Positions 3,501-12,918 of a DNA stretch of 22,097 nt are shown here, piece after piece. The stretch comes from a virus. The translations under genes were made by a program, and so were the position numbers. The notes below the pieces were generated by a model that ran no database searches, was not told the DNA's origin, and saw only the letters and a list, made by a program, of their open reading frames with translations. The first letter of the stretch is position 1, and every line of letters starts with the position of its first letter. Location: the IMG/VR virus record IMGVR_UViG_3300037189_026267, positions 1 to 22,097 of that record; one strand, 5' to 3'.

Positions 3501-4610
3501 ACCAATCCCTCTTTTGGCTCATTCGGCACTTCTCTCAGCGGCTTATATAAATTTTCTGGTTATACTTCTGGATTCAATAATTCAAGCTATCCGTCTCAAT
3601 TTCCGCTATATACGGGAACTGGATCAGTGGGGCAAAAACTGTTTTGCTATTACAACACGGGCGCTACTGGATTTGTTTTCGCTACTGGATTGGCATTCCA
3701 AAATAATAATACATACGATAAAATAATCACCAATACTGGTGTGTTTTATGGCGCAGATATTTCTCCTTTGGCAATTGTTGATAGTGGAAACAGCGGCAAC
3801 TATACTGGATTTACTTACGACTCGGCGGCATCTAATAAAAGAGGATCTCCAAGTGGACAAATCTCTGGAGCTATCAATTGGAATGCTAATTTATACCCAC
3901 CGACAAAAGGTATTTTAGATGCAGAAATTGACACTTACAACATTTCGCAAATTACAAAAATGTCGTTAACTGGTTACGATAATACCATTGATTATGGAAG
4001 CTTTATATACTTGAATCAGAACGATCCAAATGTAGCATTTTTACCAGCAGTAAAAGCGGGAAGTGTATATAGAATAGAGCGCACAGCCGCCTCGGATCAA
4101 ATTTACAAAATCGTTTCTATTCGCGAAAACTCTCAAAACGAATACAACATAACAGCTTCGCGATACGACACTGGAAAGTTCGAAACAATTGAAAAGTCTA
4201 TTACTCAAGACTTTCTCGAAAACACTTATTATACTGGAATCGTTACGGTCGGCAATGTCCAAGTTAAGCAGGTTGCTACGCCGCAAATAGTAACTTTTTC
4301 TGGATTTGATCAAACGTCTGCGGGCTTCAAGCTCACTGGAAGATGGACAAGCGGTGTCAACGCAACAGGCTTTAGAGCTTCCCTTAGCAACTCTTTGGCG
4401 GGATACTTTGAGTCTATTACTGTCAATCAAACAGGAGTTCAATTCACTGGATTGACTAATATCGGAAATTGGAACCTATCTGTTACAGCGCTGGCGAAGT
4501 CTCCAAATATAAACTCGTCAGCGGGAAGCACGGGGACGTTCGTAGCATACTCTGGCGCGGACACTACAACAATCACCAAACCAGCGGTTGTTGGTTTTTC
4601 TATCGAATAA
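573..4610 (+). CDS. Tail tip / host specificity protein, lambda gpJ-like
   Basis: A 1345-residue protein, of the size and position of lambda J, the central tail tip protein that contacts the receptor. The N-terminus has the family layout: a basic lead, then AEIVDLISDGPIEGLVD and VYLDNTPIQ, equivalent to the start of J. The middle (residues about 590-960) has the aromatic-rich hub region with WILYDLLTSKRYGLG. The region before the C-terminus (about 1140-1200) ends in a YNITASRYDTGKFETIE stretch typical of J, followed by a fibronectin type III-like domain (about 1225-1330). A Gly/Thr/Tyr-rich insert around residues 985-1110, with repeated TG pairs, is probably where receptor specificity varies. 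The start ATG is one base after the gpI stop, with no Shine-Dalgarno sequence. Confidence 0.88.
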   Translation: MKHLNKKQSIRGSGKDKPKPQPAILRPPKLGGFKSVSSFSVAEIVDLISDGPIEGLVDQNGQLLSDEVFKGVYLDNTPIQNTEQLNDPASSAIYGSVSIAEKVNPIARVWMDENGNFKTIDGKQNLLILSLNFGPLQIAKYAPFLQSIRIGDIFLNALKIPTYWKISDGKIEIHSASPPDNQSPIFTSFEAHVKNLSNNGDSISKKFADENIKKLEKIKTLMRESRYPPLVPVGSLACSFIIIDLGQVAMSSLNNIPYNNKMKFFVSGALNESASTFIQPEISNGNFTGSLRGMMVLYVPLIVVRPKNSTEYYIPQSLLKSLNSLDIKLQASESLSISDGANGLFNFSNVSCQFKNGEEYQRSLNNFDKVFNDYLYDSRLYGPFDKQKNIQRIILDSKFANGIGNMSLTIAQSQLTQGSEGSVDARTSDNYSNWNDENEKRDYESLSVTHTIENPFVDKVSVSIAVNSLSDTTEIDTNLGGTIGKLQAGSKVPSIVAVRIETGKITNGQKLEQQFYTYSIAGLIEGSCIIDFGSDYSEAENLLKDSVKFIDGDNLKDAPLTQPFILPALVDGEEPSSTKRYIKIVKLSAETNSVLINKDIALAKVTEIIDQRFSYPFSAIAGVKLDARSFGSVPERSYDCKLKKVQIPSNYRTQDPASSLDIRYVSSATNYTTKKQIYIGDWDGTFTFGWTDNPAWILYDLLTSKRYGLGAYIDESQVNKWELYKIARFCDAVDEEGYFVGVSNGFGGLEPRFSCNIMFKELTKVYDAINVIANLFRGIVFFGGSEIHFLDDRPRTPIALFNNSNTKEGIFNYGNVRRDLQFNTVEVVYLDRFDNYKTKVEYVQDEQDIRKRGVFKTTINTLGVTSRAMSRRIGQHIIYQTTKENQTVSFDAGLESLLCRPGDLIIVEDEMKTRASNYGRILEVDAVNKKLRIDNQFISGEYTGFITVYSPTGYSTNEELEDVAQINRTRVQQFSITNPSFGSFGTSLSGLYKFSGYTSGFNNSSYPSQFPLYTGTGSVGQKLFCYYNTGATGFVFATGLAFQNNNTYDKIITNTGVFYGADISPLAIVDSGNSGNYTGFTYDSAASNKRGSPSGQISGAINWNANLYPPTKGILDAEIDTYNISQITKMSLTGYDNTIDYGSFIYLNQNDPNVAFLPAVKAGSVYRIERTAASDQIYKIVSIRENSQNEYNITASRYDTGKFETIEKSITQDFLENTYYTGIVTVGNVQVKQVATPQIVTFSGFDQTSAGFKLTGRWTSGVNATGFRASLSNSLAGYFESITVNQTGVQFTGLTNIGNWNLSVTALAKSPNINSSAGSTGTFVAYSGADTTTITKPAVVGFSIE

Positions 4611-4613
4611 TTT

Positions 4614-6557
4614 ATGTTTTCATATTCAAATAAAGTAGTTGGCATTGAGATAAGAAATCAAAACGCAAGTAGCGGCTTATACGATATTTTACTTAATAAT
4701 GCATATGTGGGCAGCTCTACAGGTTCGGGGATTGGTGATGGAGCGTATTTGATTGGATCAAACAACAATTCATTGGCTTTCCCGATTACTGGGGGAGTTC
4801 CTTTGCCGACATATTATTTTAGCGATCTTTTGTTAAACACTGGAATTAATGAACTTTCCTTTGTTGGTCCTAGCGTTGAGAGCGGCTTAATCACCTCTGA
4901 AATTGATTTATATCAGATTAGCGGTTCTACATTGATTAAGTATAATACGCCTGGATGGGGGGGTGCGATTTCTATTAATTCGAGGCCGAAGCTGGATTGG
5001 TCAATATTTTATGGTCCTGGATCTGATGAAGAGGAAGACCCAGTAAGTATAACCAATGATGGATTTGAGATAAGCATAATTCAAGGAGCGCCTTCTTATT
5101 ATGGATTGGAAGAGCAGGAGTTATCAGTCGAGACTTTCGTAACGCTTCTGCCAGAAGAAAGCGTTACATTCGATTATGTCATAACTACCGTAGTTGCAGG
5201 TGACGGATATAATATATCGAATCTTCAGATTGATAATGTATTTGTGGGTGGCATAGACGATAGCGAATCTTCTTCGTTCGAAAGCGGTTACAGTTATACT
5301 AATGTCTCTGAAACGCCTTACGAATTAAGCATTAGACTGTATACTGAACTCACCAACGACACTGCCACAAATTTTAACATAAATAATTTCCAGACGACAG
5401 CGCCATCAAATTTTTATTTAAACTATCCTACGGGACTATCAGTTCCATTGTTTGAAATTTACCCCGTCTTTAATGTTGACACTGGTAACTTAAATCAAGT
5501 ATTCATAGGAAGCGGCGTTCATTTGAAAAAAGATGTCACACTTTTCTTTGACATTTTAGATCAACAGCTTAACGCGGTTTCTTCTAATCAACAATTTTTA
5601 GAAAACCCCCTAATTAGCGGATGCGTATTCGATATTTTAAATGCAAATGGAACGACTGCTTCCGAAAACTTCTTCACTGGAAAATACTCTCGCTCGCTAG
5701 CCTTTTCAGCTTTAGATAATGAAAATGTTTTTGGATCTTACCAAAAAGACTTCGGAGTAAGGTGCAAGCTGCCAAATACTTTCGATGGTTCTATTTTTAC
5801 GGGAGAGTTTTATGTCTATGGCAACGTGCCGAATATTTTGGACATTGTGCCAGATTATACAGAATTCTCTGGAGCGGCGCAAGCCACAGAGTTGATTAAC
5901 GCCGAGATTGTATTGCAGAACGATTTGAACTTCACACAAATGGATCGGTATGATGTTTACGCTTTGACTGGCAGCGGTTCAGCAGTGAACGAATTAACCT
6001 ATTTAAATCCATTCGCTCAAGAAGGCTACTTGTTCTCTCAAAGCGCAGCAGACGTTGTAAACGCTCGCTCCCTCACAATCAACAGGGGGACGTTGGCTCA
6101 AGACGTTCCACACTACTTCACGGTCGTTCCCTACGGAACGCTAGGCTCTGGAAGCTCATTCACGTTTGGACCTGCTACGTTTGTTACTGTCGAAAACATT
6201 ATTGTTTTCTCCGAAACTAATTCTAGCGCCTTAAATTTATACGATGGCAACTCTTTTGGTCAGACTGTCTATAAAACAGGAAGATTTTTAAGCAACACAG
6301 GCATATTGCACCAGTTCTCATCTGGACAATTCACTTCAGTAAAATATTTTATAGAAGTCTCTGGCAGCGGACAAAGAAGACTTTCCGAGTTGAAAGGCGT
6401 TGTCAATACAACGGGTTTCGATTTAACAAAAGAATCCGTAAACGATACCACTACACAGTATCGACTTACGGGTTTTTCAAGCGGGCAGTGCGGCTTATTT
6501 GCAAGTGGAAGCGGCTACGCCGACTACTCATACAAGTTGCAAGCTACTATGATCTAA
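4614..6557 (+). CDS. Putative tail tip-associated structural protein, FN3-like repeats
   Basis: A 647-residue protein of unknown specific function, three bases after the J-like gene and clearly co-transcribed with it. It is rich in Gly, Ser, Thr, Asn and aromatic residues and poor in Lys and Cys, which is usual for beta-rich phage tail and adhesin proteins. Around residues 430-530 there is a fibronectin-like pattern: a strand with MDRYDVYALTG, then VPHYFTVVPYGTLGSGS. An acidic run (DEEEDP, about residues 141-146) probably separates an N-terminal domain from the rest. There is no signal peptide or membrane segment. By position it may be a tail tip extension or side fibre. The name of the domain is an inference from pattern only. 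Confidence 0.6.
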   Translation: MFSYSNKVVGIEIRNQNASSGLYDILLNNAYVGSSTGSGIGDGAYLIGSNNNSLAFPITGGVPLPTYYFSDLLLNTGINELSFVGPSVESGLITSEIDLYQISGSTLIKYNTPGWGGAISINSRPKLDWSIFYGPGSDEEEDPVSITNDGFEISIIQGAPSYYGLEEQELSVETFVTLLPEESVTFDYVITTVVAGDGYNISNLQIDNVFVGGIDDSESSSFESGYSYTNVSETPYELSIRLYTELTNDTATNFNINNFQTTAPSNFYLNYPTGLSVPLFEIYPVFNVDTGNLNQVFIGSGVHLKKDVTLFFDILDQQLNAVSSNQQFLENPLISGCVFDILNANGTTASENFFTGKYSRSLAFSALDNENVFGSYQKDFGVRCKLPNTFDGSIFTGEFYVYGNVPNILDIVPDYTEFSGAAQATELINAEIVLQNDLNFTQMDRYDVYALTGSGSAVNELTYLNPFAQEGYLFSQSAADVVNARSLTINRGTLAQDVPHYFTVVPYGTLGSGSSFTFGPATFVTVENIIVFSETNSSALNLYDGNSFGQTVYKTGRFLSNTGILHQFSSGQFTSVKYFIEVSGSGQRRLSELKGVVNTTGFDLTKESVNDTTTQYRLTGFSSGQCGLFASGSGYADYSYKLQATMI

Positions 6558-6712: not shown

Positions 6713-7164
6713 AATTTACTAATGTATGTTTCGGAATCTTTAAGGAATCCCATTTTTTTGTAGAATGATTTTAATTTTTCATGAGAAGGATTGTTGACAA
6801 CTGTGGACATTGAGATGTATTTGCAACCCATTTTTCTAGCAGCGGCAATCGCCGCCTTAAACAGTTTATATCCCGCCGCAGGATTCTTGGACAACCAGAG
6901 GAATTCGTGAATTATTTGTTGATTAAATTTCGGGCATCTAACTTTTTGAAAAGCGATCATAGCGTCGAATTTTCCGTTTGTATAATTGCCCCACACCAAA
7001 AAGTCCCACGCCAAAATAGATGGATGTGCGAAGTTCGCCTTGATAGTCTCTGGACTATGAGCTAACAAGGCGTGTCCTTCATGAGAATCATGCTGTTCGA
7101 AAAGCTCATACATGTCGTCGATAAGCTTTTCGAACTCTGCGGGATTGGAAATCCGTTTAATCAT
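6709..7164 (-). CDS. GNAT-like N-acetyltransferase
   Basis: A 151-residue protein, the usual size for a single GNAT domain. The C-terminal half has the expected order: a strand with EFLWLSKN (about 87-94), a turn and helix where acetyl-CoA is bound (NPAAGYKLFKAAIAAARKMG, about 94-113), a strand (KYISMSTVVNN), and the typical NPSHEKLKSFYKKMGF helix and strand that ends many GNAT proteins. The classical Q/RxxGxG/A loop is degenerate (KNPAAG), so the acyl donor and activity are uncertain. The substrate is unknown. The start overlaps the end of the upstream gene by 8 bases and its stop overlaps the start of the small basic gene, so it belongs to the glycosyltransferase operon. Confidence 0.65.
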   Translation of the reverse strand: MIKRISNPAEFEKLIDDMYELFEQHDSHEGHALLAHSPETIKANFAHPSILAWDFLVWGNYTNGKFDAMIAFQKVRCPKFNQQIIHEFLWLSKNPAAGYKLFKAAIAAARKMGCKYISMSTVVNNPSHEKLKSFYKKMGFLKDSETYISKL

Positions 7165-7921
7165 TAATTTTTTTGATCAAAACCCTAGCAGTCTTCGCGG
7201 GAACGTCGGCGAAACTCTTCCAATCCTTGGCATCTGCCAAAAGACTTAGAGTAGATTCATCGCTAGCTTCCGAAGCGACAGTCCACATATTGCGGAGATA
7301 CGCCTTAAAGTCTTCAAACGAAAAGATTTTCAGCTTGTCGTTGACATTTTTTTCTAAAGCTCCTTGAGGAGTAATAGGAATCGCCGTTGATTGAATCAAC
7401 TCAGAAATATCAACCGCCTTGTTTTTGGATTTGTCGATTTCATCTGCCCCGACAATATGAATGTTGAGGAAGTTGCGAACGCAACGCACAAACGCTCGAT
7501 TACACGCGATAGTTTCCAAAAACTTTAAACAGAAACTGTCTGTATTTGCTTCTGTAGCGTTTGCGATATCTTCAAAATGAACGGGCTGATTGCTTGTTTC
7601 AAAGTTGCCCAGCCAATCAATTGAACAGTGCGCCACAACATAATTCGGAGACACATGATCGACTTTATAGCTGACGCTGGTAAAGCCTCGAAGACGAGCT
7701 AATTCTTTGATGCCGCCAAGCATAATCAATAGCTGCTTGTCATCCAATCCTTCAATTGAAGCGGGCATCTGCTGCTTTCGCAGTTCAAAGTAATCTTTGT
7801 TCGGATACAAAAACTGAGGATCAATCATCGCCCGCCAATCCACAAATCCTTCTGAAGTGAACTTGTATTCTTTTTCGTTGATTAGTCCGTCTTGGTCTCT
7901 TGTAATTTTATTTTGTGTCAT
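7157..7921 (-). CDS. Probable phage annealing/recombination protein, Rad52/ERF-like
   Basis: A 254-residue soluble protein. A central alpha/beta region (about 70-160) has beta strands (GFTSVSYKVDHV, YVVAHCSIDW) followed by a helix rich in conserved-looking small and basic residues: ANATEANT, then ETIACNRAFVRCVRNFL and IHIVGADE. That order, with an R-A-x-x-R-x-x-R helix ending at a short hydrophobic strand, resembles the core of phage single-strand annealing proteins of the Rad52/ERF group. The C-terminal region (about 200-254) is a separate helical part ending in a basic KTARVLIKKIND. It overlaps the neighbouring genes by 14 and 8 bases. I am not certain of the family; a plain phage protein of unknown function is the alternative. 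Confidence 0.4.
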   Translation of the reverse strand: MTQNKITRDQDGLINEKEYKFTSEGFVDWRAMIDPQFLYPNKDYFELRKQQMPASIEGLDDKQLLIMLGGIKELARLRGFTSVSYKVDHVSPNYVVAHCSIDWLGNFETSNQPVHFEDIANATEANTDSFCLKFLETIACNRAFVRCVRNFLNIHIVGADEIDKSKNKAVDISELIQSTAIPITPQGALEKNVNDKLKIFSFEDFKAYLRNMWTVASEASDESTLSLLADAKDWKSFADVPAKTARVLIKKIND

Positions 7922-9077
7922 AAAGATAAAAATGATTTAATTCGCTTAGCAGCAGCTCATTATCTTCTATGATGAGGTTTTTGTCAACAACATTTTTATC
8001 TTTTTTCCAGTGATAGGTGCTTGGGTATTTTTTACCACGCGATAAGATTGTTTTGTTCGAGTGAAATGAGGATTTATTAAAATTAATTTTTTTATCTTTT
8101 AAAATAGACTTATCCGCACTAACATAAACCTGCACATTAAAATCAAAATACTTGTCTCGAATCTTCGGAAGAGTGGCGCTGTCTTTCACCAGCAAATTGA
8201 CGACGATTCCTAAGCCGCCAATATAGTTCAGATAATCATTAGAAATGGAACTCTGCTCATCCACGAAAAAAGAAATGCTCTTTAGCTTGCCGCGAACTTT
8301 CTGAATGAATTGATGGGGTATCATTTTATCAGCAAAGAATGAAAACGACGGCAAATATTCGCACCACGTTTCAACATATGAATGAGAATCGAGATAATCA
8401 AGTCTCATAAACCAATGCTTTTCCGACATTCCTGGAATTTGTTCGAAGAAGTCTGGAACCAACTCGAAAACAGGATGATGATAAAAATCTCCAATAAAAC
8501 GAGTTTTAAGCGGAATAGATTTATCTGGCGCGAATTTTTTGATAATTGCGTTGGCAATGTCTTCGGGTAGAATTTTGTTGATTGAATCGTGTTGATCCAC
8601 GACGTTAAAGCTTGGCTTGACTTTCCAAGGAGCTTCGATATTTGTTTTATTTTCAGGAGAACTCCAATATCCATCGCAACAGGCGGCATAAGAATCTCCG
8701 AACAATGCGACAACGGGAACTTGGTTAAAGCTCGCGTAGTGCATGAGAGCGTCGTTGCACCCAATATGCAACAAGCTATTTTGAACGATATACGCTTGTT
8801 TTTTGAAATCAAGATCAAAAATCATTTCATCAACCGATGAAAGCTTTGGCGATTTTGACGAGCCGATTTGAATAATTTTGATTGACTGCTTTTGTAGCGT
8901 CGAGCGAATGCTGTCGAAAACCACATCAAAGTATTTGTATTGTTTCGATTGAATTTGAGACTCTACAGATACGGTGATATACTTATCTGGGATGACTGGA
9001 AAAAAATGCTCCGCCAAAACAGGCTTGCCAATTTTTACGCCAAGATTTTTGGCATACTCTTCTACTAAGTGACTCAT
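7908..9077 (-). CDS. Glycosyltransferase, GT9 (heptosyltransferase-like) C-terminal half plus unknown domain
   Basis: A 389-residue protein. The first about 180 residues match the second half of a GT9 fold: SHLVEEYAKNLGV at the very start corresponds to the linker helix between the two Rossmann domains, and HIGCNDALMHYASF with VPVVALFGDSY (about 104-130) is the nucleotide-sugar binding signature of heptosyltransferases. The N-terminal Rossmann domain is missing here and appears instead at the C-terminus of the upstream gene, which overlaps as ATGA. Residues 185-389 are a second domain that I do not recognise, Phe/Tyr/Lys-rich with KTRFIGDFYHHP near its start. It may act on a surface or DNA-linked sugar; the substrate cannot be read. 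Confidence 0.65.
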   Translation of the reverse strand: MSHLVEEYAKNLGVKIGKPVLAEHFFPVIPDKYITVSVESQIQSKQYKYFDVVFDSIRSTLQKQSIKIIQIGSSKSPKLSSVDEMIFDLDFKKQAYIVQNSLLHIGCNDALMHYASFNQVPVVALFGDSYAACCDGYWSSPENKTNIEAPWKVKPSFNVVDQHDSINKILPEDIANAIIKKFAPDKSIPLKTRFIGDFYHHPVFELVPDFFEQIPGMSEKHWFMRLDYLDSHSYVETWCEYLPSFSFFADKMIPHQFIQKVRGKLKSISFFVDEQSSISNDYLNYIGGLGIVVNLLVKDSATLPKIRDKYFDFNVQVYVSADKSILKDKKINFNKSSFHSNKTILSRGKKYPSTYHWKKDKNVVDKNLIIEDNELLLSELNHFYLYDTK

Positions 9078-10969
9078 TGTAAATTGAATTGAATTTTATC
9101 TTTGCCACCATGAATATAGCAAATATTTTTTTGAGTTGTAGTGGTCGGCATGAAGGCTATGTCGAAGTATCCCTTGTGATCACCCGCTCCCTCTAAAATA
9201 AATGAATTTTCTAGCATTTCAGAATATAAAATACATTTGTGAATAAAAGGATTGTCTTCAATCAACGGAAAATATTCTTGTCGCGTAGCGAAATAAATAT
9301 TGTAATTCGGATATTGCTTGTGCAGATTCTCCATCAGACCGTTCAATAAAAGAACGTCCGATTCTCCGCCTTGCACCAAAACGCAAATGCGTCTGCCTTC
9401 GTCGTCTTTTTCCAAAACGCTTTCAAAATCAATTGGTTTATGCTGTTGCTGTAAACACACTTGGCGAAAATGGTGATGCATTTGTTCTCGATTGATTTCT
9501 TGCTGCAATTTGCTTCTCCATACTTTAAATGAAGTGTGATTTTCATCTATTGTTTCTCCCAGCATTTCTTTGTGGAGAGAAATAATAAAGTCTTTTTCAT
9601 CCGCTTGGAAATCGGGCTGATATTCAGAATTGAATCGCGGAGGAGGATTGTCGAAGTCGTAATCGACTTCGGGCATAGAATCAATAATTGATTCAAGCTC
9701 TTGGCCGATTGCTTCAATCGAACATTCGTCTATTACAAACTGACGAGCCTTGATGCCGATTGCCGCTCTCTCAATCGAAGGCATATTATAAACAGCAAGT
9801 AACTGTTCGGCGATATGATTAGGATCGGTAGAAGCTTTAATAAATTGAGTTCCTGGCTCTCGGTATTCCGCCCAATTAAGAGGCAAGCCGCCGCTTTCTT
9901 CCGTGCAGTATTCTTCGCCACATGAATAGTTGGTGACGAGAGTAATCAGCTCTGCCAGTTTCGCTTCTTGAATTGGAATTTCTTGACCACCACTTGTGAA
10001 TGGGTGGCAATATACATCCATGAGGTTGTAGATTTCATTCAATTGGCTTTCGCTGGCTCCGTTGCTGATATTCGTAGTGCTTACTGTTTTTTTGCCGCCG
10101 CACGAAGGGCAGTCGCGATCTTGACCGATAAATGGAGAAACAAAATAACTTTTGCATTGATGACAAAAGTAAGTAGTTAGAACGTCTTTGCTATCAATAT
10201 TTTTTTCTTGTAGAAGCGTTGGGATATCCCACCCTTCCGACCAGTGAGTGTGAAGCAAAAGTTTGGCATTTGGGACTTGCTGTTTAAAAATTTTAAAACC
10301 TTCCAGCAAATTGGGAACGCTTTTTCTCAGTTGGTTTCTAAACACAAAGCCTACGATAAACTCGTCGGAAAGATTAAACTTCTGGCGCAATGCTGCGCGT
10401 CTATGATCGTCCATCCGATAGAATTGATTAACGTCTAAGCTTCCGTGCAGAGTCTTGATATGATTGTAGCCCATTTTTTGGAACGCTTTTTCCGCAAAAG
10501 AAGACCACACATAATAATGTTTGATTTTCGGCGCGGCATCAATAGCTGATTGCAGAATAGGCAAGCTATCAAGCGTAGTCCAAATCATTGAATTCACTCT
10601 ATTCCACCAAGGCTTTTCATAAAAACCATCAAATGCCCAAATATCCTCGATACCGATATAGACATCAGGGCGCACAGTATTGATAACATCGTCTATACCA
10701 AAAGCTCCATATGCAGCTTGGCGCTGCTGATGTTGATCTTGATTAATTTCCGCCATCTTTTGAACATCAGGCAAAGAGCCGTAGGTAGTCCATGGAGTGC
10801 TGCTCGCCTCTGGACAGCTTCTCATTAGCCCATTGGCAAGTTCAAAGACTTCATACTTACCCGTATTAAACAGATAGCGCAAGATATTCTTTTTATGCTT
10901 GCCGAAGCCTGTAAAAGCCTTGCAAAAATTTGAATGACAAAGCACTCTTTTTTTTCTAGTAGAATCCAT
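9074..10969 (-). CDS. GT4-like glycosyltransferase with inserted zinc ribbon and GT9 N-terminal domain
   Basis: A 631-residue, multi-domain protein. Residues about 1-430 have a GT-B, GT4-type layout: an N-terminal GFGKHKKNIL loop, a donor-domain RNQLRKSVPNLLEGF motif (about 211-225), and HPFTSGGQEIPIQEAKLAE (about 322-340) in the place of the EX7E donor-sugar motif. The second Glu (335) is kept, while the first is replaced by Ser/Gly. A C-x2-C ... C-x2-C zinc ribbon (Cys 269, 272, 287, 290) is inserted in the donor domain. Residues about 527-631 look like the first Rossmann domain of a GT9 heptosyltransferase (RICVLVQGGESDVLLL, then YNIYFATRQEYFPLI). The sugar and acceptor are unknown. It follows the 160-residue gene by 19 bases. 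Confidence 0.75.
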   Translation of the reverse strand: MDSTRKKRVLCHSNFCKAFTGFGKHKKNILRYLFNTGKYEVFELANGLMRSCPEASSTPWTTYGSLPDVQKMAEINQDQHQQRQAAYGAFGIDDVINTVRPDVYIGIEDIWAFDGFYEKPWWNRVNSMIWTTLDSLPILQSAIDAAPKIKHYYVWSSFAEKAFQKMGYNHIKTLHGSLDVNQFYRMDDHRRAALRQKFNLSDEFIVGFVFRNQLRKSVPNLLEGFKIFKQQVPNAKLLLHTHWSEGWDIPTLLQEKNIDSKDVLTTYFCHQCKSYFVSPFIGQDRDCPSCGGKKTVSTTNISNGASESQLNEIYNLMDVYCHPFTSGGQEIPIQEAKLAELITLVTNYSCGEEYCTEESGGLPLNWAEYREPGTQFIKASTDPNHIAEQLLAVYNMPSIERAAIGIKARQFVIDECSIEAIGQELESIIDSMPEVDYDFDNPPPRFNSEYQPDFQADEKDFIISLHKEMLGETIDENHTSFKVWRSKLQQEINREQMHHHFRQVCLQQQHKPIDFESVLEKDDEGRRICVLVQGGESDVLLLNGLMENLHKQYPNYNIYFATRQEYFPLIEDNPFIHKCILYSEMLENSFILEGAGDHKGYFDIAFMPTTTTQKNICYIHGGKDKIQFNLQ

Positions 10970-10988
10970 TTTATTGATAATTTAACTT

Positions 10989-11471
10989 TTAGTCATCGCT
11001 GCGATTTTGTGTTTGAGCGTTTGTGCGAGCTTCGTAAAGTTTCTGCAAAATCATTTTACAGAATTCTCGAATTGCATAAGCTTCCCCAGGTTCGATACCG
11101 ATACCGAATTTTAAAGCTGAGTTTTTGGTAATTGAAAATGAGAACGCTTTAGATCCATCGCTTTTCGCGTATGGTTTAAAAGAGATGGCGGTCTTGTTGG
11201 TTTCGTGGCTGTGGAATGCTTTGTATTCGCAGTAGTTTTCAATTGCATTGATGATGCCTCCCACTTCAAACTCGTTGAGTTTAATGATTGCAGTTTTTTC
11301 GGGGTTTTTGACATTCTCCGAAAAAGAACCGTTCTTGGTTTTCTCGTTCCAAGAATGCTGCATAATTGCATTGACATAAAGACACGGTTCTTTGAATTTG
11401 CCAGACGTTCCGAAACGAAAGGAGAATGCGCAACCACTATTTTTTGAATTGGGCTTGTAAAGTTGAATCAT
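10989..11471 (-). CDS. Conserved-looking hypothetical protein, possible nucleic acid binding
   Basis: A 160-residue protein that is the first gene of the leftward cassette. It appears to be a single beta-rich domain with repeated strands (CAFSFRFG, CLYVNAIMQHSW, KTAIIKLNEFEVGGI, AISFKPYAK, KAFSFSIT) alternating with basic, aromatic positions, followed by a C-terminal helix (EAYAIREFCKMILQKLYEA) and a short tail ending in two Asp residues. The beta-barrel-like pattern and acidic tip would suit a small single-stranded DNA binding protein, but I do not recognise the family and this is a guess. Its ATG is 21 bases from the divergent gene start, so regulatory sites must overlap coding DNA. Confidence 0.55.
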   Translation of the reverse strand: MIQLYKPNSKNSGCAFSFRFGTSGKFKEPCLYVNAIMQHSWNEKTKNGSFSENVKNPEKTAIIKLNEFEVGGIINAIENYCEYKAFHSHETNKTAISFKPYAKSDGSKAFSFSITKNSALKFGIGIEPGEAYAIREFCKMILQKLYEARTNAQTQNRSDD

Positions 11472-11492
11472 ATTCTGATTTTAAATACATAG

Positions 11493-12173
11493 TTGAATTT
11501 TTCCATCCAAAGTGTAAGATATTATGTGCCATACTTAAATCATAATATTCCCACGATTACCTGCTTATTGCGCAACGAATATCTTTTTAATCATGAAAAG
11601 GGGCATGGCGAATACACTTCATGCGATGTTCATTCCGTGGCATCTATTGAAAAAAGGGTTCCTTTATTTGAGGCGTTTTTAACAAATGGGGTTAATTGGA
11701 CGCGCAGACCCATCACGGCATTTTGTTGGAAGCCGTGCGATCCAGTTCCGCTTGAACATGCGATGTATTGGGATTGCTTTAGTCCATATATCGACGTTCA
11801 ATTTCGCGCTCGCATGAAAGGGCTTAGAGCTTTGCTCATCACACCGCAAAACACTAAAGAGGCTGGAGAATACATGTTTACGCTAGATTGGGGCTGGGAG
11901 AATAAAAGCATCTTGGACACTAATTTCTCTGAAACATCAGAGCATAAATGCGCTCATGTGTTCAAAATGGACAATGGTAACTTTTATGCTTATCCCAATA
12001 ACCGAATTGTGTGGCACGACAATGCGTGGGTAGATAGCCCCATTGACAAAAATCCTGGATATAAAATTGATTTGACTGTATATAGCGTGGAAAATAAACG
12101 GACTCTATTTACCGACTATAGCTACATGACCGAATTTACAGAAAAACCCCAAGAAGCCAAAGATGTTGTTTAA
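11493..12173 (+). CDS. Hypothetical protein, tail fibre operon, Trp-rich
   Basis: A 226-residue protein of unknown function, first gene of the fibre block. The frame begins with TTG at 11493 directly after an in-frame TAG, so TTG is the earliest possible start; GTG at 11526 is the next candidate and no ATG occurs before residue 91. The protein is rich in Trp, Tyr, His and Pro. It has a beta-rich C-terminal half with HKCAHVFKMDNGNFYAYP and NRIVWHDNAWV (about 151-180), resembling a cupin or other beta-sandwich in pattern only; no metal-binding triad can be assigned. It overlaps the SET gene by 11 bases, which suggests coupled translation and possibly a shared task. Confidence 0.55.
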   Translation: MNFSIQSVRYYVPYLNHNIPTITCLLRNEYLFNHEKGHGEYTSCDVHSVASIEKRVPLFEAFLTNGVNWTRRPITAFCWKPCDPVPLEHAMYWDCFSPYIDVQFRARMKGLRALLITPQNTKEAGEYMFTLDWGWENKSILDTNFSETSEHKCAHVFKMDNGNFYAYPNNRIVWHDNAWVDSPIDKNPGYKIDLTVYSVENKRTLFTDYSYMTEFTEKPQEAKDVV

Positions 12174-12573
12174 TAAACATCAATTAATTAGCCAAATACG
12201 CAGTGGTGCGTTGGTGAAACTCATTCCCAGCTCTATTGTCGGCGCTGGCGTAGGTGTCGAAGCTATCACGGAAATTGATAAAGGCGAAGTGGTTTTCGCT
12301 CCCAAAGACACTCATTTTGTGCGTTGGAGCGAACTTCTCAGTGTTGAAAGTGATGTGATAAACTATATTAAAAAAATCTGCAACAATAATGAATACGGCT
12401 TTTGGATAGACTGCTACATAAACGACATTGGCGCGGCTTATTTCGTAAACCATTCCGACGAGCCAAATTTAATCCACGATAGAGAGCGGGATATTTATTA
12501 TGCCGCAAAAAAAATCGAAATAGGGGAAGAGCTTACGTGTAAATATTCTCTAGACGAGATTGATTGGGTGTAA
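12163..12573 (+). CDS. SET-domain protein (lysine methyltransferase fold)
   Basis: A 136-residue protein that is essentially a bare SET domain. The diagnostic motifs are in order: GAGVGVEA followed by IDKGEVVF (about 27-45) at the start of the fold, YFVNHSDEPN (about 93-102), which matches the NHS-x-x-PN S-adenosylmethionine binding and knot motif, and IGEELTCKY (about 120-128), which matches the EELTxDY active-site segment. The Asp of that last motif is Lys here, but the final Tyr is kept. There are no pre-SET or post-SET cysteine clusters. It would transfer methyl groups to lysines of a phage or host protein. It lies in a structural operon between an unknown gene and a small tail-like gene, so a virion protein is one possible target. 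Confidence 0.8.
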   Translation: MLFNKHQLISQIRSGALVKLIPSSIVGAGVGVEAITEIDKGEVVFAPKDTHFVRWSELLSVESDVINYIKKICNNNEYGFWIDCYINDIGAAYFVNHSDEPNLIHDRERDIYYAAKKIEIGEELTCKYSLDEIDWV

Positions 12574-12582
12574 TAGTCTTCG

Positions 12583-12918
12583 ATGAGTGCTGCTTTCACT
12601 GGAATAACTATCGAACAAAGATCCTGCTACGATTTGACGCTTACTATTCAGCGGAATAATGGTATTTACAATTTAAGCGGAGTCACTTTAACTGGGCAGA
12701 TTCGCAGAAATTTTGATGATGCTTTACAGGCTGTGCTGACCACTCAAATTATCAGCATACCAAGCGGCATCGCAAAGATCAGTTTAAGCTCCGCTCAAAC
12801 GTCGAATCTTGATTTGTCGCCATGTTATTGGGATTTATATGCGGACAAATCTGGAGAATGCCCAGACAAACTTATGTATGGCACTGTTGATGTCGTTAAA
12901 TCCGCAACTTATCCATGA
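12583..12918 (+). CDS. Small structural-like protein upstream of tail fibre
   Basis: A 111-residue beta-rich protein. The N-terminal region (ITIEQRSCYDLTLTIQRNNGIYNLSGVTLTGQIRRNF) resembles the N-terminal domain found on some phage baseplate and receptor-binding proteins (BppU-like), where a short beta-sandwich attaches a fibre to the tail. It continues through alternating strands and ends near GTVDVVKSATYP. The stop overlaps the ATG of the fibre gene as ATGA, so the two proteins are likely made in step and may interact. The assignment is from pattern alone; an unrelated phage structural protein is possible. Confidence 0.5.
   Translation: MSAAFTGITIEQRSCYDLTLTIQRNNGIYNLSGVTLTGQIRRNFDDALQAVLTTQIISIPSGIAKISLSSAQTSNLDLSPCYWDLYADKSGECPDKLMYGTVDVVKSATYP

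Follow-up and report, generated by a model that had tools for sequence, protein, structure and literature searches.

Is a glycosyltransferase of family GT9 divided between two adjacent phage genes, or do the two reading frames look divided owing to a sequencing indel or to a frameshift that joins them? The question is raised by the window, by which we mean the whole stretch analysed here, 22,097 bases of the IMG/VR virus record IMGVR_UViG_3300037189_026267 (positions 1 to 22,097). Among its other phage genes are lambda J-like tail genes and one for a SET-domain protein. A preliminary description of this sequence had drawn attention to two overlapping genes (Table 1), and their ORFs, the ATGA overlap and the frame were all correct as it gave them. 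It read the pair as one enzyme split over two genes at its domain boundary, with the first half fused to a GT4 enzyme and the second to a domain that it could not name, and it offered an indel or a frameshift as alternatives.

Table 1. Features of the split locus in the window, followed by the genes that stand between the two halves in related loci (given as the gap between gene 1 and gene 2).
Feature	Position or gap	Strand	Basis or remark
Gene 1, protein 1, 631 aa	9074..10969	-	GT4 glycosyltransferase and N-terminal half of the GT9 fold
Protein 1 residues 1-430, complete GT4-type GT-B domain	9680..10969	-	Pfam, AlphaFold2, Foldseek
Protein 1 residues 265-292, four-cysteine zinc-ribbon-like insert in the GT4 domain	10094..10177	-	Invariant cysteines; sub-threshold zinc-ribbon matches
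Protein 1 residues 525-631, N-terminal half of GT9	9077..9397	-	hhalign; hmmsearch (3TOV); conservation
Protein 1 Asp538, putative HepI Asp13 equivalent	9356..9358	-	Register from hmmsearch and hhalign
ATGA overlap	9074..9077	-	Gene 2 start codon over gene 1 stop codon
Gene 2, protein 2, 389 aa	7908..9077	-	Inter-domain helix, GT9 C-terminal domain, further C-terminal domain
Protein 2 residues 1-188, GT9 inter-domain helix and donor-binding domain	8514..9077	-	Profile, Pfam, hhalign, structure
Protein 2 Lys45, putative HepI Lys192 equivalent	8943..8945	-	Aligned to WaaF K195
Protein 2 Asn108-Asp109, at the HepI Asp261 position	8751..8756	-	Alignment with 1PSW
Protein 2 residues 189-389, well-folded alpha/beta C-terminal domain	7911..8513	-	Confident fold, no recognised relative
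Neighbour, 254 aa, overlapping the end of gene 2	7157..7921	-	Present in 119/122 loci
Upstream neighbour, 160 aa	10989..11471	-	Present in 114/122 loci
Junction insert: cupin	+359 nt		L041
Junction insert: DUF6165 protein	+375 to +400 nt		L133, L137, L200, L204
Junction insert: Anp1-like glycosyltransferase	+637 nt		L230, L236, L243

Two proteins that tile one GT9 fold

Protein 1 contains a GT4 enzyme with a complete GT-B fold, to which both Pfam (Glyco_transf_1, 26.8 bits against a cut-off of 26.4) and the best PDB matches of its AlphaFold2 model in Foldseek (pLDDT 88.4) point, confirming the GT4 fusion proposed earlier. The protein matches PHROG 2170 (E 3e-18), and its GT4 part resembles both that phage family and 3OY2 from Chlorella virus NY2A, while adding to them a zinc-ribbon-like insert, a linker and the N-terminal half of GT9. 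The insert is uncommon for GT4, and its four cysteines (C269, C272, C287 and C290) are invariant in 100/100 aligned homologues. The preliminary description missed this fold, and it held that a complete GT-B in one protein would speak against a split; protein 1 does have one, but it is that of GT4, and neither protein contains a complete GT9.

Since Pfam gives no match for either GT9 half in the window, family alignments of the homologues were built and compared, profile against profile (hhalign), with 15 ordinary single-chain bacterial GT9 proteins. The last 115 residues of protein 1 aligned to GT9 columns 11–73 (97.8%, E 8.5e-13) and the first 200 residues of protein 2 to columns 140–350 (98.8%, E 7.8e-17), stretches that are adjacent and non-overlapping; the joined pieces cover columns 11–350 (99.7%, E 1e-25), and the negative controls, the GT4 part of protein 1 and the tail of protein 2, gave a probability of about 1%. 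The alignment of protein 2 starts at residue 3 (HLVEEYA), facing the inter-domain helix of ordinary GT9 (HEVERNL), and the cut falls just ahead of this helix, at the domain boundary. These comparisons establish the GT9 fold of both halves, N-terminal on protein 1 and C-terminal on protein 2, much as the preliminary description had proposed.

For the C-terminal profile of protein 1, the best PDB match is the GT9 structure 3TOV, residues 8–65, in the correct register but at an E-value of only 0.015 (hmmsearch), and 1PSW residues 2–56 ranks lower in an identical register. This half is shorter than its counterpart in ordinary GT9. Its last 20 residues have a pLDDT below 50 when protein 1 is folded alone (AlphaFold2), yet TTQK, Y, HNGKDK and QF within them are strongly conserved, so we read this tail as a likely partner-dependent segment or interface. 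Protein 2 is modelled with a mean pLDDT of 95.3 and a pTM of 0.90, and its best PDB matches in Foldseek are WaaC, TibC and 3TOV, with WaaF also among them, all over the GT9 C-domain only (about 195–210 aligned columns for the best three). The family profile of protein 2 matches PDB 1PSW (HepII) residues 195–338 (E 7e-7), and PF01075 (Glyco_transf_9) is matched at E<=0.01 by 81 of 100 homologues (best 3.8e-12). The window's own protein 2 has no Pfam match and is therefore placed through the family profile and the predicted structure. Annotation is at some hazard here: Pfam misses the N-terminal half, and all that the records list for such a pair is a GT4 protein beside a hypothetical one.

The earlier remark that the second half is fused to an unfamiliar domain also holds, as residues 189–389 of protein 2 gave no match in Pfam, PDB sequences or the GT9 profile, and the PDB structure matches all lie over the GT9 part. 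Among 296 Bacteroidota genomes this region matched only two phage-like contigs, bar short run-overs. The GT9 half of protein 2 had cellular matches in 119 of these genomes, mostly in frames of about 310–400 aa, as expected of ordinary single-chain GT9.

In HepI (WaaC), D13 is the catalytic base, and the D13A, D261A and K192A substitutions lower activity 4688-, 2027- and 926-fold, respectively (PMC5713226). Judged from the alignments, these residues are partitioned in the phage pair, with the D13 equivalent in the Rossmann domain of protein 1 and the K192 and D261 equivalents in the PF01075-type domain of protein 2. Position 538 is Asp in 151/154 and in 172/176 pairs (two alignment sets); position 45 of protein 2 is Lys in 134 and Arg in 15 of 154, with Lys in the window; and position 108 is Asp in 138, Asn in 11 and Glu in 4 of 154. 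All three positions (D, K/R and D) are kept together in 149/176 pairs, and K45 or D108 is lost in 11 further clades or single lineages. The window's clade has Asn at position 108 throughout, and this replacement of Asp108 by Asn108-Asp109 in the window and its close relatives makes the activity of the window's own member less certain.

The junction across homologous phage loci

Seven viral-contig scans and one genome-contig scan yielded 195 distinct protein pairs, spread over a broad tree. In every one of them both genes share a strand, with gene 1 ahead of gene 2, and the two are separate; neither a pair with both GT9 domains on one polypeptide nor a fused homologue to serve as a structure template was found in these eight scans, where the preliminary description had suggested looking for a fused version among relatives. 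The GT9 fold is always two genes in this large group of mostly aquatic phages. Four loci in which a partner seems missing or broken (L092, L240, L250 and L257) are contig-edge or interrupted cases. The split is also kept in L255 and L256, whose protein 1 is divergent and mostly lacks the linker between GT4 and GT9, and in the clade of L225, L229 and L232, where Asp538 and the conserved tail have been lost from protein 1 and the first helix of protein 2 is divergent. Known and cultured phage isolates held nothing similar to protein 2 and only remote GT4 similarity to protein 1.

If the division were a sequencing indel, a pseudogene or a programmed −1 frameshift joining both frames, the ATGA overlap in the −1 frame would be accounted for, as would the loose slippery heptamer that 46/192 loci have within the final 60 nt of gene 1, although AT-rich DNA yields such heptamers by chance. 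Against this stands the variety of the junction, where gaps lie between −14 and +7 nt and each of the three relative frames occurs across the 195 pairs, and where 19 pairs, including one metagenome-bin copy, have a whole gene between the halves; three separate clades carry three unrelated genes at this place (Table 1). Both genes are under strong purifying selection in all segments (dN/dS 0.0–0.1 where estimable), and in the window a TAA closes the frame of protein 2 six codons before the ATG, the 18 nt between them being free of slippery heptamers. The homologues share neither a frame relation nor a slippery site at the junction, and what they do show is a GT-B fold cut at its domain boundary into two conserved genes. 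The varied gaps and frames, the inserted genes and the closed upstream frame exclude an indel, a pseudogene or an obligate frameshift for the family, and we give a joined product hardly any credence. The reading of one enzyme split over two genes is supported by the same pairs.

Proposed assembly, alternatives and precedents

Our preferred reading, to which we give a probability of about 70%, is a heterodimeric GT9-type site that is assembled in trans and tethered to a GT4 site. Proteins 1 and 2 would form a heterodimer, or a larger complex, with two glycosyltransferase sites, of which one is the intact GT4 site within protein 1 and the other a GT9-type site built between the two chains. The acceptor-side Rossmann half of the latter, with Asp538 as the putative catalytic base, would come from protein 1; its donor-side half, with Lys45 and Asp/Asn108, and the helix between the domains would come from protein 2. 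Because the catalytic residues are split over two proteins, the halves probably must come together to work. The overlapping or abutting start and stop codons may allow both chains to be made in step from one mRNA, and the order of the genes and their overlap point to translational coupling. Engineered GT-B domains that are expressed separately are known to self-assemble into active dimers (PMC10937113). Co-variation between the proteins is suggestive only: 26 of the top 50 pairs lie between the two halves against 4.2 expected, mainly reflecting one deep split at which positions 543, 570 and 572 of protein 1 and 7, 10, 12 and 24 of protein 2 switch jointly, and within clades the larger shows no enrichment and the smaller about twofold. 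Since a single deep branch supplies most of this signal, we do not use it as proof of contact.

The halves might instead associate in a composite GT9 that is no longer catalytic and has become a docking or acceptor-recognition module holding protein 2 to the GT4 enzyme. Such a role would fit the window's clade and several others, in which the equivalents of D261 or K192 are lost or altered. It would also fit the retention of both genes by L225, L229 and L232 after the loss of D538 and the tail, and the far better conservation of the GT4 part than of the GT9 halves. A pure docking module, however, has no need of a catalytic base, and the retention of D538 in 172 of the 176 pairs counts against it, together with the large majority of pairs in which all three positions are canonical; we consider this reading unlikely. 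It is still less probable that the halves do not associate at all and, left over from an ancient break in the gene, now have independent roles. Association is deduced here from sequence and models, and the co-variation fades within the larger clade, which leaves some room for such relics, but they would hardly account for 195 pairs that occur together without exception and in one order, for catalytic residues that are complementary between the proteins, or for a protein 1 tail that is conserved though disordered.

Split GT-B enzymes as such are already known from Alg13/Alg14 and EpsE/EpsF, which are related to GT1/GT28 (PMC8993221). Like the phage pair, these have a GT-B fold cut at the domain boundary with acceptor and donor halves on separate genes, and their active site lies in the cavity between the halves, as is proposed for the phage pair. 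They are GT28/MurG-like, whereas the family and structure evidence for the phage pair is all GT9, with no GT28/MurG-like membership in sequence; Alg14 has a membrane anchor without a fused GT4, which protein 1 has; and Alg13/14 re-fusions are known, whereas the phage scans yielded none. Compared with ordinary single-chain GT9 (PF01075), such as HepI (WaaC), HepII (WaaF) and TibC, the fold, the order of the halves and the D13 and K192 positions are alike, and the D261 position agrees in most phage homologues, being Asn in the window's clade. The ordinary enzyme is one chain of about 320–400 aa, while the phage version is two chains, with a shorter N-terminal half fused to GT4 and a C-terminal half fused to a domain without a recognised relative. 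TibC and related bacterial autotransporter heptosyltransferases are GT9-related and act on proteins, with Asp110 as the catalytic base (PMC4358343). This residue is the equivalent of D13, and TibC is the second-best structural match of protein 2; however, it is a single-chain dodecamer without a GT4 fusion, and for the phage pair a protein substrate is only putative. We found no description of a split GT9, or of a split GT-B in phages, in the open-access literature. With the phage pair, a second family would have its own, apparently independent GT-B split, established throughout a diverse group of phages. Such a case would let one ask why this fold becomes divided and stays so, and whether two steps of sugar transfer are coupled when the acceptor half is attached to another transferase.

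Neighbouring genes and likely substrates

The gene pair and its two neighbours (Table 1) form a four-gene block that is more strictly conserved than the surrounding genes. The 254-aa neighbour has no Pfam, PHROG or PDB match, and the 160-aa neighbour no PHROG match and no significant PDB match. In relatives, glycan-related genes occur near the pair (Anp1-like, WavE, GT8, HAD and nucleotidyltransferase, sulfotransferase), and tail genes lie close to it; on these grounds the acceptor could reasonably be a structural protein or a surface glycan. It is less likely to be DNA, as none of the 18 large related contigs, which may be incomplete, has a thymidylate-synthase-family gene (PF00303) over the cut-off. 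With no base hydroxymethylase of this family detected there, we rejected phage DNA-base glycosylation as a candidate role; no paper on DNA modification by a phage heptosyltransferase was found in the open-access literature. In the same 18 contigs no GmhA-type SIS gene was seen, so a donor other than the ADP-heptose of heptosyltransferases is conceivable, and a heptose supply of the phage's own was likewise rejected. The pair would most likely attach a short glycan, either to one of the phage's structural proteins or to a glycan on the host surface. More speculatively, and with rather more doubt than confidence, the GT4 and trans-assembled GT9 sites in one heterodimer might build a disaccharide or longer glycan stepwise on a structural protein, the split letting glycan genes insert at the junction and acceptor and donor halves be swapped.

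As for the hosts, at least half of the MAG bins holding homologous contigs are Bacteroidota. Shine-Dalgarno-like motifs occur at 7% of gene 1 starts and 5% of gene 2 starts, against 7% in shuffled sequence (181–192 loci), and this lack of excess would fit hosts such as Bacteroidota.

Other modification genes were observed in the window and its relatives. The window encodes a SET-domain protein (12163-12573; Pfam SET, E 8e-11), possibly a protein lysine methyltransferase, which has tail genes on one side and a conserved ORF of 226 aa on the other. The L041 locus has an unusual modification-gene set near its tail genes (4355-5532 and 10947-12705), comprising a sulfotransferase (Pfam), an oxygenase-like ORF with no Pfam match and a GT8. 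In L061 (2765-4138), a HAD phosphatase-nucleotidyltransferase fusion, found in about 20 related loci, stands beside a WavE-like gene and might provide a sugar or polyol in activated form.
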